A stretch of 49,528 nucleotides of DNA from Candidatus Sumerlaeota bacterium (lineage in GTDB: Bacteria; Sumerlaeota; Sumerlaeia; JAFGJS01). The translations under genes were made by a program, and so were the position numbers. Below are positions 29,075-33,191 of this stretch, piece by piece. The DNA lies in the NCBI GenBank assembly GCA_016928995.1, contig JAFGJS010000084.1, positions 1 through 49,528 on the forward strand. The letters run 5' to 3'. How positions within the stretch are numbered: the stretch's first letter is position 1; each line of letters opens with the position of its first letter. Under the pieces are notes generated by a model. The model saw only the letters and a list, made by a program, of their open reading frames with translations. It was not told the DNA's origin and searched no databases.

Positions 29075-29106
29075 ATCCAGTCGATCCTGTTAATCCTGTC
29101 AAAAAA
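29075..29106 (-). repeat. GACAGGAT-type repeat, middle copy (inverted)
   Basis: On the minus strand the copy reads TTTTTTGACAGGATTAAC and continues AGGATCGACTGGAT, inverted relative to the left copy. Together with the left copy it brackets the small AT-rich ORF. A further AGCAGGATTATT stretch follows at 29113 in direct orientation as a possible degenerate unit. Confidence 0.8.
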
Positions 29107-29135: not shown

Positions 29136-29537
29136 ATGCTATATGAGAACTTAACGGAAATTATAATTGGATGCGCTTATAAGGTTTACAATACTCTGGG
29201 GTTTGGCTTCCTGGAATCGGTTTATGAAAATAGCATCCTCCTTGAACTTAAACGAGCTGGATTGGACGCTCAGCAGCAAAAGCCGATACAGGTTTATTAT
29301 GACGGGCAGATAGTTGGTGAGTTTGTCGCAGACATTGTAGTGCACGACATCATCATTATTGAGCTGAAGTCTGTGCGCAAACTAATCGAAAGCCATGAGG
29401 TGCAACTGGTTAATTACCTGAAAGCGACAGGCAAAGATGTGGGACTCTTGATCAATTTTGGCGAAAACAAAGTTGAGGTGAAACGCAAAGTTCGTTCACT
29501 GAATAAAAATCCCGATCATCCTGTTCATCCTGTCTAA
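29136..29537 (+). CDS. GxxExxY family protein (PDDEXK_3-like), first copy
   Basis: A 133-residue member of the GxxExxY family, named for the motif seen here as GFLESVY (residues 24-30). The family is related to PD-(D/E)xK nucleases: FVADIVV gives Asp66 and IIELKSV gives Glu76 and Lys78, followed by a conserved Gln90 in EVQLVNYLKA. Its biological role is not established. Members often occur in many copies per genome, near dispersed repeats. Here the last nine residues (NPDHPVHPV) are encoded by the flanking GACAGGAT repeat, so the ORF runs into the repeat and stops inside it. It lies inside the nuo operon in the same direction, between nuoC and nuoD. Confidence 0.88.
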   Translation: MLYENLTEIIIGCAYKVYNTLGFGFLESVYENSILLELKRAGLDAQQQKPIQVYYDGQIVGEFVADIVVHDIIIIELKSVRKLIESHEVQLVNYLKATGKDVGLLINFGENKVEVKRKVRSLNKNPDHPVHPV

Positions 29538-30789: not shown

Positions 30790-31304
30790 TGGAACAGACA
30801 GCCGTTTCACAAATTCAGGATATTAAACCGGATGACTTGATGGTTCTCGGCGATCGGATGAGCGAGATTCGCGAGCTCGCCGGGAAGTATCCCGAGCGCG
30901 GGTCGCTGACGCTGCCGTTGCTGTGGATGGTGCAGCGGCAGGAGGGGTATGTCACCGAGGACGGCAAGCGCGACATCGCGCTGCTCACGGGCAAGCGGCT
31001 GGCCGAGGTGCAGGAAGTCGTGACGTTCTACACGCAGTACTTCCAGCAGCCGGTGGGCAAGTACTGCCTGGGCGTGTGCCGCACGCTCCCCTGCGCGCTG
31101 AATGGCGCGGGCGGCATGTTCGATTACCTGAGCGAGAAACTCGGCGTCAAGAACGGCGAGACGACGGAAGACGGCAAGTTCACGTTGCTGGCGTACGAAT
31201 GCCTCGGCGCGTGCAGTGAAGCGCCGGTGCTGCTGGTGAATGAAAAGACGTACACGCGCATGACCAAAGCGAAACTGGATGCTCTGCTGGAGAGCATGGA
31301 ATGA
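30789..31304 (+). CDS. nuoE: NADH-quinone oxidoreductase subunit E
   Basis: A 171-residue thioredoxin-fold subunit (24-kDa family) carrying the [2Fe-2S] cluster N1a of the NADH module. The four ligands are Cys97 and Cys102 in GVCRTLPC, and Cys138 and Cys142 in YECLGACSEAP. The N-terminal helical region includes LLWMVQRQEGYVTED. ATG at 30789 shares a base with the nuoD stop; a longer frame from 30693 overlaps nuoD and is not supported. The stop overlaps the start of an inserted PIN-domain gene by ATGA, which is unusual because nuoF would be expected next. Confidence 0.97.
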   Translation: MEQTAVSQIQDIKPDDLMVLGDRMSEIRELAGKYPERGSLTLPLLWMVQRQEGYVTEDGKRDIALLTGKRLAEVQEVVTFYTQYFQQPVGKYCLGVCRTLPCALNGAGGMFDYLSEKLGVKNGETTEDGKFTLLAYECLGACSEAPVLLVNEKTYTRMTKAKLDALLESME

Positions 31305-31783
31305 AAGAAAAGGTTTACATCGACTCCACAATACCCAGTTATTATTTCGATGAGCGGGAGTCTTTGCGCTTATTTACAGAAATTACCCGGCGATGGTGGA
31401 AGGAAGAATCGGGGAATTATGAGATTTGGATTTCAGGCGCCGTCTTTCAGGAGCTAGGATTGGGGAATTATCCCAATAAAGAAAAGGTGCTCGAATTGAT
31501 CCAGAACATTCCATTCCTGGACCGACTCAATGAAGTGGAGGAGATTGCACAATTCTATATGACGCATTTTGTGATGCCGCAGTCCCTGGCGGGTGACGCA
31601 GTGCATCTGGCATATGCATCGTTTTACAAGTTCGATTATCTCCTGACTTGGAATTGTAACCATCTGGCCAATGCCAACAAACAGCGGCACATCAAGATTA
31701 TCAATGGACAATTGGGATTGAGCACGCCACAGATTATTACGCCCATGGAATTGTTTCAGGAGCAGAGCAATGATAACGAATGA
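31301..31783 (+). CDS. PIN-domain protein, VapC-like toxin
   Basis: A 160-residue PIN-fold ribonuclease of the toxin type. Acidic metal-binding residues are visible as Asp8 in VYIDSTIPSYY, Glu51 in VFQELGLGN, and Asp99 in LAGDAVHLAYAS. The segment YLLTWNCNHLANA is characteristic of one VapC subfamily. PIN toxins cleave tRNA, rRNA or mRNA when the antitoxin is lost. The start overlaps nuoE by ATGA, and a 59-aa gene overlaps its end by 14 bp. The pair looks like a toxin-antitoxin module captured inside the nuo operon. The toxin comes first, the reverse of the usual order. Confidence 0.88.
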   Translation: MKEKVYIDSTIPSYYFDERESLRLFTEITRRWWKEESGNYEIWISGAVFQELGLGNYPNKEKVLELIQNIPFLDRLNEVEEIAQFYMTHFVMPQSLAGDAVHLAYASFYKFDYLLTWNCNHLANANKQRHIKIINGQLGLSTPQIITPMELFQEQSNDNE

Positions 31784-31949
31784 GATTTTACAAGAAAAAT
31801 ACCGGGTACAGAAGTGCTTGTCTGAACAGGCAAAGGATATGCATGAATATTTCGTGCAAATCGACCGCGACGTTGAGGAACTGGCGAAAAAGTACGGCTT
31901 CAAAATCAAGACGGCAGCGTCCATAGCCGCATCCAAGAAAATGGGTTGA
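31770..31949 (+). CDS. Small partner of the PIN protein, putative antitoxin
   Basis: A 59-residue, highly charged, helical protein that begins MITNEILQEKYRVQKCLSEQ and contains a DRDVEELAKKYGFKI segment. Small proteins of this appearance commonly lie next to this PIN subfamily, so an antitoxin role is inferred from context and resemblance. The ATG overlaps the toxin stop region by 14 bp, and GGAGCAG lies about 7 bases upstream. It shows no recognisable DNA-binding fold. It may be shortened at the C-terminus, since relatives as I remember them are slightly longer. Confidence 0.65.
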   Translation: MITNEILQEKYRVQKCLSEQAKDMHEYFVQIDRDVEELAKKYGFKIKTAASIAASKKMG

Positions 31950-31966
31950 AGGCACGGAGCAGGACA

Positions 31967-32713
31967 ATGCAGGAATTGCGGAAAAATAATAAGTTCAGAA
32001 ATGGATTTATCGATGTGATCGAAAGCTGCGGATTAAAACCGTCGCTATTTGAGCCCAGTGATAAAGCTAACGTTGATGGCCATCCTGCATTCATATTAAC
32101 CTTAAAGGATTCTGGATTGTCGTTCCTAGCGCGCACATGTAGCAGTGATCAGAGACGCCATGATTATAAATTTATTATATATGGTGCTGATTATAATTGG
32201 TCAAATTATATGCCGCGCTCTCGAAGTGGAATGGAGTATATATATCCGCAAGATAGAATTGGAAGTCCCGAAGAATCGTGCTCTGCAACTGATGTTTATA
32301 CGGCATTTACCAGTTGGCTAGAAGATCATGTGAAACCTTATTTACGGGAATTGGAAACTCCCAATCTTTGGGAGCAAATTGCCAAGCAAGATATAGTGAA
32401 GTTTGATCCACGTATTCGAGATGAAAATGAATTCAACGAAGATGAAAAAAAGGAATATAGAGCATCAATCGCAAAATTTCATCAACTGATTTTGACAACA
32501 TATCATCCAAATGATGAATGCCAGAAGCAAATTCAGGATCAATTGGATTATCTTACCGAACGAGTGGATAAATTGAATAAGTTTGATTGGTGTGGTGTAG
32601 CGATACAGATACTCATCGGCATTTCAATTCAATTAGCTTTCAATGAGGAGAGCCGAAGGCAATTATTTGATTTGTTCAAGGAATGTTTTTCCGCTTTTCA
32701 TCTTCTGAACTGA
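31967..32713 (+). CDS. AT-rich ORF of unknown function, soluble domain plus C-terminal hydrophobic helix
   Basis: A 248-residue protein. The N-terminal ~120 residues are a globular domain with no recognised fold (FLARTCSSDQRRHDYKFI, ADYNWSNYMPRSRSG). After the linker YLRELETPNLWEQ comes a helical, charged region (NEFNEDEKKEYRASIAKFHQL; QIQDQLDYLTERVDKLNKFDW). A hydrophobic segment CGVAIQILIGISIQLAF follows near residues 207-225, with a short tail. This C-terminal coiled-coil-plus-helix module resembles one attached to varied N-terminal domains in bacterial accessory proteins (from memory, unverified). The DNA is AT-rich relative to nuo genes. ATG at 31967 has GGAGCAGG just upstream. A membrane-associated effector role would be speculation. 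Confidence 0.6.
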   Translation: MQELRKNNKFRNGFIDVIESCGLKPSLFEPSDKANVDGHPAFILTLKDSGLSFLARTCSSDQRRHDYKFIIYGADYNWSNYMPRSRSGMEYIYPQDRIGSPEESCSATDVYTAFTSWLEDHVKPYLRELETPNLWEQIAKQDIVKFDPRIRDENEFNEDEKKEYRASIAKFHQLILTTYHPNDECQKQIQDQLDYLTERVDKLNKFDWCGVAIQILIGISIQLAFNEESRRQLFDLFKECFSAFHLLN

Positions 32714-32742
32714 GGAAATATTCGTCAGCGTGAAATAAAAAA

Positions 32743-32769
32743 TCACGCAGAGGCGCGGGGGCGCAGAGG
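32743..32769 (+). repeat. CACGCAGAGGCGC-type inverted repeat, left arm
   Basis: The arm contains TCACGCAGAGGCGC followed by GGGGGCGCAGAGG. It is the inverted partner of the arm at 33165-33191, with only a few mismatches, and lies 9 bases before the second GxxExxY gene. The arm itself is built from repeated GCGCAGAGG units. Confidence 0.85.
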
Positions 32770-32778
32770 TTTTGAGTA

Positions 32779-33162
32779 ATGCATGAAAATGATATAGGAA
32801 CGATTGTCATTGAGGAATGCATCGATATTCATAGGGAGTTAGGGCCGGGACTGTGGGAAGTGGTTTATGAGGTGGTGTTGGTTGACGCCTTGTTAAGACG
32901 TGGACTGAAGGCTGTGCGGCAGGTTCCGATCCCCATTCAGTTCCGGGGCAGAAAGTTTGACGAAGGCTTTAAAGCGGACGTGATTGTGGATGACAAAGTC
33001 GTTTTAGAGTTGAAATCTGTGGAAAGAGTCGCGCCGGTGCATAAAAAGCAGGTGAATACTTATTTACGAATGACGGGATGTAAGTTGGGCTATTTGCTGA
33101 ATTTCGGTGAGGAACTCATGCGGGATGGCATCCATCGGGTTGTGAACGGCTTGGAGGAATAA
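32779..33162 (+). CDS. GxxExxY family protein (PDDEXK_3-like), second copy
   Basis: A 127-residue family member with the naming motif as GLWEVVY (residues 24-30). The nuclease-like residues are Asp67 in FKADVIV and Glu77/Lys79 in VLELKSV, followed by Gln91 in KKQVNTYLRMTG. Sequence identity to the copy at 29136 is low outside the motifs, so the two are separate acquisitions rather than a recent duplication. It is enclosed by a 27-bp inverted repeat of a family unrelated to that around the first copy. The gene is in the nuo direction, between the AT-rich ORF and nuoF. Composition is closer to the nuo genes than that of the ORF before it. Confidence 0.88.
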   Translation: MHENDIGTIVIEECIDIHRELGPGLWEVVYEVVLVDALLRRGLKAVRQVPIPIQFRGRKFDEGFKADVIVDDKVVLELKSVERVAPVHKKQVNTYLRMTGCKLGYLLNFGEELMRDGIHRVVNGLEE

Positions 33163-33164
33163 AT

Positions 33165-33191
33165 CCTCTGCGCCTCAGCGCCTCTGCGTGA
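33165..33191 (-). repeat. CACGCAGAGGCGC-type inverted repeat, right arm
   Basis: The minus strand reads TCACGCAGAGGCGC followed by TGAGGCGCAGAGG. It starts two bases after the GxxExxY stop codon and ends 30 bp before nuoF. With 32743-32769 it forms a nearly perfect inverted pair around a single gene. Confidence 0.85.

Follow-up and report, generated by a model that had tools for sequence, protein, structure and literature searches.

The 49,528-nucleotide contig JAFGJS010000084.1 of a Candidatus Sumerlaeota bacterium (the window; the host genome is G000) contains a small gene of the GxxExxY family that lies tightly between inverted arms. Is this arrangement a coincidence, or do the gene and its arms form a unit, and what could the encoded protein do with the arms? 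A described function for the GxxExxY family was not found in the open literature searched, nor was any account of arms around GxxExxY genes; a text search for PDDEXK_3 was without result, and the arm words searched as text gave no relevant occurrence. The family name occurred in two papers, once in each. In the relevant section of one of them, PMC8934634, GxxExxY appears merely as a domain label at the place where a cas4 gene would be.

A GxxExxY gene between inverted arms in the nuo operon

The initial annotation of the window had described a gene packed between 27-bp inverted arms, the left arm ending 9 bp before the ATG and the right arm beginning 2 bp after the stop codon, and these coordinates were reproduced exactly (left arm, TCACGCAGAGGCGCGGGGGCGCAGAGG; right arm, CCTCTGCGCCTCAGCGCCTCTGCGTGA; Table 1). 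A repeat search lengthened the arm pair to 43 nt at 81%. When the upstream flank was aligned with the reverse-complemented downstream flank a score of 22 was obtained, against a maximum of 15 among 2000 dinucleotide shuffles. Both arms are built from three 8-bp units of CTCTGCGC type, with GTGA at the outer end. No target-site duplication was visible at 32740 / 33192, and an Rfam search over the window arms returned a match to mir-383 only, at chance level.

Table 1. Positions of the two GxxExxY units in the window
Feature	Position	Strand	Description
Left arm	32743..32769	(-)	Three 8-bp units of CTCTGCGC type, outer end TCACGC; 25/27 complementary to right arm
GxxExxY gene, 127 aa, PD-(D/E)XK nuclease	32779..33162	(+)	TIGR04256, PF13366, conservation, AlphaFold model
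Right arm	33165..33191	(+)	CTCTGCGC CTCAGCGC CTCTGCGTGA; terminus class GA
Upstream arm of second GxxExxY gene	29083..29100	(+)	GATCCTGTTAATCCTGTC; oriented like downstream arm
Second GxxExxY gene	29136..29537	(+)	TIGR04256 2.2e-42; tree position in clade with ..AT-type arm words
Downstream arm of second GxxExxY gene	29514..29534	(+)	GATCATCCTGTTCATCCTGTC; doubles as coding for C-terminal DHPVHPV

The cassette is located between nuoE and nuoF, together with two unnamed ORFs. Relatives in which this region was examined have the two genes close together or adjacent and no GxxExxY in the gap, indicating that the nuo operon of the host is interrupted in the window. The ORFs at 31301-31783 and 31946-32713, which lie in the nuoE-nuoF gap, have no Pfam match, and relatives are without such a gap. 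The second GxxExxY gene of the window adjoins nuoD on its upstream side and has ATCCTGT arms, both in one orientation. A relative belonging to another family (G022, locus L069) has a GxxExxY gene between nuoD and nuoE.

The GxxExxY protein has a conserved nuclease active site and a Cas4-like predicted fold

The protein encoded in the window matched TIGR04256 (5.7e-37; 126.6 bits, cut-off 35; profile positions 4-116 of 116) and PF13366, PDDEXK_3 (5.6e-37). These were its only profile matches; no DDE, HUH or serine/tyrosine recombinase was found, which agrees with the earlier statement that the protein is not a known transposase. The residues of its active-site set are E27, D67, E77, K79, Q91 and Y95. 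Across the 206 GxxExxY genes compared (see below), E77 and K79 were present in 206/206, D67 in 203/206, Q91 in 200/206, Y95 in 199 and E27 in 205/205. The AlphaFold model of the protein (pLDDT 95.4) gave Cas4 SSO0001 as its best fold match (Foldseek 6.8e-4; VIA Z 9.3); Hjc and lambda exonuclease were also matched, where Z values of 6 to 8, as seen for matches other than Cas4, mean only a shared arrangement. A conserved D..ExK active site and a restriction-endonuclease-like fold in the predicted model place the protein in the PD-(D/E)XK group. A sequence search of the PDB returned no solved relative and a single match at chance level (E 0.064).

The fold and the D..ExK and QxxxY motifs are common to GxxExxY and the Cas4/RecB-like exonucleases (4ic1 SSO0001, lambda exonuclease). 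Unlike those enzymes, the window protein has just 127 residues, and iron-sulphur cysteines are absent from the invariant set. No CRISPR genes were noticed around the window copy, and the window gene matched no defence model of PADLOC; the same search gave a weak Cas4 match (3.9e-4) for the paralogue at 29136.

Arms accompany GxxExxY genes across bacteria

The initial annotation had raised the question of whether arms occur with GxxExxY genes more often than expected. This was clearly the case: inverted flanking arms (flank alignment score of at least 14) were present at 153/206 GxxExxY genes from many phyla and at 4/678 control ORFs taken from the same kind of loci (Fisher p ~1e-119), in a sample made up of 80 loci found by scanning 84,980 species genomes, those most closely related to the window gene, and of the best-scoring genes from a survey of 386 genomes, so that remote members are under-sampled. 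The proposal of a minimal cassette, consisting of two arms and one nuclease-like gene, was upheld, with the same format recurring across bacteria. In these cassettes words of 8-10 bp, set in arrays, make up the arms.

GxxExxY was found in 112/386 surveyed genomes. Genomes with at least five exact GCG-type arms had the gene in 25/30 cases versus 87/356 of the others (p 2e-10), and with the same threshold the figures outside the host phylum were 10/12 versus 70/334 (p 1e-5). Inside the host phylum, however, arm abundance did not separate genomes by GxxExxY presence (15/18 versus 17/22). Three genomes, G004 (one contig), G009 and G017, hold 16-19 exact arm copies each, and a GxxExxY gene was not detectable in them despite the arms; the idea that the gene is obligatory wherever its arms occur was dropped. 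A genus search around G091 found no genome besides G091 itself.

Only 8/72,556 plasmid records contained GxxExxY, and carriage by phages was rejected, since none of the 50,697 phage records did (0/50,697). The upstream neighbour was codirectional with the GxxExxY gene in 72/77 cases, compared to 187/303 for ordinary genes, and expression by read-through is the simplest reading of this bias.

The arm word follows the protein

If gene and arms form a unit, similar proteins should have similar arms. Over pairs from different genomes, protein and arm similarity were correlated (r=0.483), while free shuffles gave 0.00+-0.03. Shuffling within genomes only gave 0.325+-0.023, and none of the 2000 shuffles (0/2000) reached the observed value, so that the match between arm and protein is no by-product of the host. 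On the protein tree (182 sequences), two changes of arm terminus (GCG-N-GA or G(C/T)G-GT, 52 genes each) occurred over 104 genes, and the unit class (CT, 8-9 bp; AT, 9-11 bp) changed 11 times versus ~41 after shuffling, on a tree that is weakly resolved (124 columns) and with arm classes that were assigned by pattern and left 17 genes unclassed. The proteins are often only 40-60% identical, a distance over which neutral arms would lose their words, and this points to constraint on the arm words. Sequence comparison therefore shows that gene and arms are co-inherited as one unit with a protein-specific word, and suggests that the GxxExxY protein may physically recognise the words of its arms.

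Arm words and gene-free copies in the host genome

G000 carries eight GxxExxY genes, all with arrays of short words on both sides. The word is CTCTGCG at four genes, and CACAGAG, ATCCTGT, ATCCCCAT and TTTCG(C/T)G at one each. As counted by pattern searches, together with inspection of 20 stretches, the window-type CTCTGCG arm has 106 approximate copies in this genome as against 14 for the reversed control. In the 20 stretches many arm copies formed inverted pairs with their termini outward, either as hairpins with a loop of ~20 bp, or around GxxExxY genes, or around other orphan ORFs; a DMP19-like gene, a zinc-ribbon-like gene and unnamed ORFs are among the genes enclosed. Hence arms lie mostly apart from GxxExxY genes (~106 copies, eight genes), which is half of what the initial annotation had named as evidence against a functional cassette; the other half, genes mostly without arms, was not found, and a functional cassette is not refuted because GxxExxY genes mostly do carry arms. 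The notion that GxxExxY is the only possible content of the arms was not supported, as other orphan genes and hairpins are enclosed too and a second protein family shares the format (see below). Single orphan genes other than GxxExxY were seen within or beside CTCTGCG arms at six loci (L046, L047, L048, L051, L054 and L061), one of them DMP19-like.

Six hairpins of G000 have a common loop, and several are also alike outside one arm, indicating a dispersed family of their own. Hairpins at L056, L057, L058 and L060 share the loop GAAYRCATGAATATCAAAT and have CTCTGCG arms, as in a REPIN-like family.

The genome also has nine Y1 transposase genes (L343-L351), all with long, TIRtron-like inverted arms (score 21-56), and these serve as a positive control for the arm method. 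The Y1 arms are internally palindromic, unlike GxxExxY arms. A RAYT, the simplest alternative mover of the GxxExxY arms, was rejected, because all nine Y1 genes have different arms.

Turnover at fixed sites

We found differing GxxExxY cassettes, or a deleted remnant, in one intergenic slot of related genomes of family f144 (L178, L383, L384, L386). The cassette of G168 in this slot measures 436 bp and has CACAGAG arms; that of G387 measures 459 bp, has CACGGAA arms and encodes a protein of 48% identity, in flanks that are 92-96% identical. G386 has a 146-bp internally deleted remnant that keeps both CACAGAG arms, and G391 a 490-bp cassette. At another site (L248, G168:C4:631372-633572, compared with L403-L405) a cassette of G168 is cleanly absent from the sister genomes G386, G387 and G388, and part of it was found elsewhere in G386. 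This insert extends 20-40 nt beyond the arms to inverted GTAACTAT ends and is bracketed by a direct repeat of 6-7 nt, AAGATA; in this one case a cassette may have been captured by a larger transposon. A further candidate for a clean empty site, L297, was rejected on comparison with L411-L413, where the sister genomes retain the ACCACAGAAACACGGAATT arms and hold a TTATTACTTCGG inverted-repeat insert within them in place of the gene.

A target duplication of at least 3 nt was present at 7/121 cassettes, where 2.9+-1.6% was obtained after shuffling (~3.5 cassettes expected), and no bulk duplication was seen. The insertion-sequence geometry initially proposed is borne out in part: terminal inverted repeats do surround one gene, but taken strictly it is not supported, as no duplication of target sites was seen in bulk. 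The comparison establishes, for the sequences examined, that copies with internal deletions exist, that gene-free hairpins with related arms are dispersed and that fixed sites undergo turnover; gene and arms appear to be inherited, lost and exchanged together, as one unit.

Four-helix-bundle genes share the format

Genes for four-helix-bundle proteins (TIGR02436, the S23 protein of 23S rRNA intervening sequences; L352-L381) had inverted arms in 23/30 cases, showing that the format is wider than the nuclease, and we no longer take a gene-between-arms arrangement to require a nuclease. The arm period of these genes is 7 bp in 19/23, whereas that of GxxExxY arms is mostly 8, 9 or 10. Arms of four-helix-bundle genes resembled GxxExxY arms of the same genome no more than those of other genomes (5.0 vs 4.9). 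The upstream gene was codirectional in 22/23.

The intervening sequence of Coxiella has been described as a selfish element of 428 nt, excised by RNase III, that has inverted repeats at its termini and heptamers in tandem (PMC4990558). Like the GxxExxY cassette, an intervening sequence with the S23 gene is a unit of ~430 nt with one small gene between inverted repeats, has arms of short tandem words, lies inside transcribed regions and has been called selfish. In contrast to the four-helix bundle, the GxxExxY unit encodes a nuclease and has words of 8-10 bp, and it occupies intergenic or intercistronic sites rather than rRNA, the window copy lying between nuoE and nuoF.

Discussion

The GxxExxY cassette has the appearance of a minimal mobile element, of a widespread kind that has gone essentially undescribed. 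We lean, with modest confidence, towards an element whose GxxExxY nuclease acts on its own inverted word arrays and which is copied to other intergenic sites. That the protein would process its own arms fits the observations that the arms flank the gene far above chance and that their word is tied to the protein. Comparison shows the arm association, a clade-matched word that is independent of the host, a conserved active site and a codirectional sense orientation.

Such an element would have no promoter of its own and would be transcribed by read-through from the upstream gene. Its inverted arms could fold into a hairpin, in RNA or in single-stranded DNA, and an RNA hairpin might be trimmed by RNase III by analogy with 23S rRNA intervening sequences. 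The Cas4/RecB-like protein would recognise the arm words and trim or nick the arm DNA, and the unit would then be copied into another intergenic site; the joining step may be carried out by host repair or another enzyme. Short gene-free hairpins would be non-autonomous derivatives, used in trans. Several results count against this explanation. The non-enzymatic four-helix-bundle family has the same format, and the nuclease is thus not common to all units. Arms occur without GxxExxY in G004, G009 and G017, with no separation inside the host phylum. Finally, no bulk target duplication was seen, and the clean L248 insertion has its ends outside the arms.

The last of these is the strongest point of the main rival to a protein acting on its own arms, which is that GxxExxY is a passenger, the arms owing their movement to a different enzyme or to recombination and repair by the host, with various small orphan genes having ended up inside. 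The direct repeat at L248 lies, with the outer inverted ends, outside the arms, the arms of G000 also enclose DMP19-like, zinc-ribbon-like and unnamed genes, four-helix-bundle genes use the same format, and some genomes have arms without GxxExxY. A passenger, however, should not predict the arm word, and even among the genes of a single genome the word goes with position in the GxxExxY tree; moreover, four-helix-bundle arms are no nearer to the GxxExxY arms of their own genome, RAYT arms differ from them, and the active site is retained in nearly all GxxExxY copies. We regard the passenger view as rather unlikely. It is still more improbable that the cassette is an immobile chromosomal regulatory unit, its arms serving as operators or RNA hairpins for autoregulation or for stability of the operon message. 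The tight match between arm and protein, the codirectional upstream gene and the rarity on plasmids and phages would suit such a role, but against it stand differing cassettes in one slot of close relatives, an empty site and an internally deleted copy, dispersed gene-free hairpins, and insertion within conserved operons, e.g., nuoE-nuoF and fabD-fabG. The arm repeat is abundant enough in G000 that it could be imagined to have fallen by chance on both sides of the window gene; this reading was refuted by the survey, other GxxExxY genes of G000 are flanked by arms of unrelated words, and we give it practically no weight.

Among known elements, the self-acting GxxExxY unit that we favour can be compared to REPtrons and TIRtrons, in which RAYT (Y1, HUH) genes are flanked by inverted REP or TIR arms and REPIN hairpins are moved in trans (PMC3116915, PMC2817692, PMC3733652). 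Both have a single small gene between inverted arms, arms whose sequence changes along with the protein, scattered short-loop inverted pairs that lack the gene, and a chromosomal location; that no bulk target duplication was seen in our cassettes is in keeping with this. They differ in that the GxxExxY enzyme is a PD-(D/E)XK nuclease, profile searches having given no Y1/HUH match, and in that its arms are arrays of 8-10 bp words rather than GTAG-tagged palindromes.

A broader reading, which we put forward tentatively, is that of a new class of mobile elements across phyla. Each would encode a small protein that reads a periodic word, set out in inverted arrays at both ends of its gene; where the protein is the Cas4-like nuclease, it would also move or copy the unit together with the many gene-free derivatives. 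It is possible, though we would not presume it, that the protein sets both word and period (7 bp for the four-helix bundle; 8-9 or 9-11 bp for two GxxExxY clades). If such a class exists, the intervening sequences of 23S rRNA would have their origin explained as well. The link to the arms gives the GxxExxY gene a candidate substrate, and the match between protein and word makes a recognition code testable. Abundant unexplained intergenic repeats (CTCTGCG, CTCTGTG, ATCTGCG and ATCCTGT words) gain a likely partner in GxxExxY, and become connected with the long unexplained intervening sequences of 23S rRNA.

Some further locations of GxxExxY genes were recorded. In Sphingomonas parapaucimobilis (L339) the gene is inserted between fabD and fabG, and at L163 and L165 it apparently also lies before fabG. 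In one complete genome (G179:C1:793844-827837), several GxxExxY genes are clustered within 35 kb.
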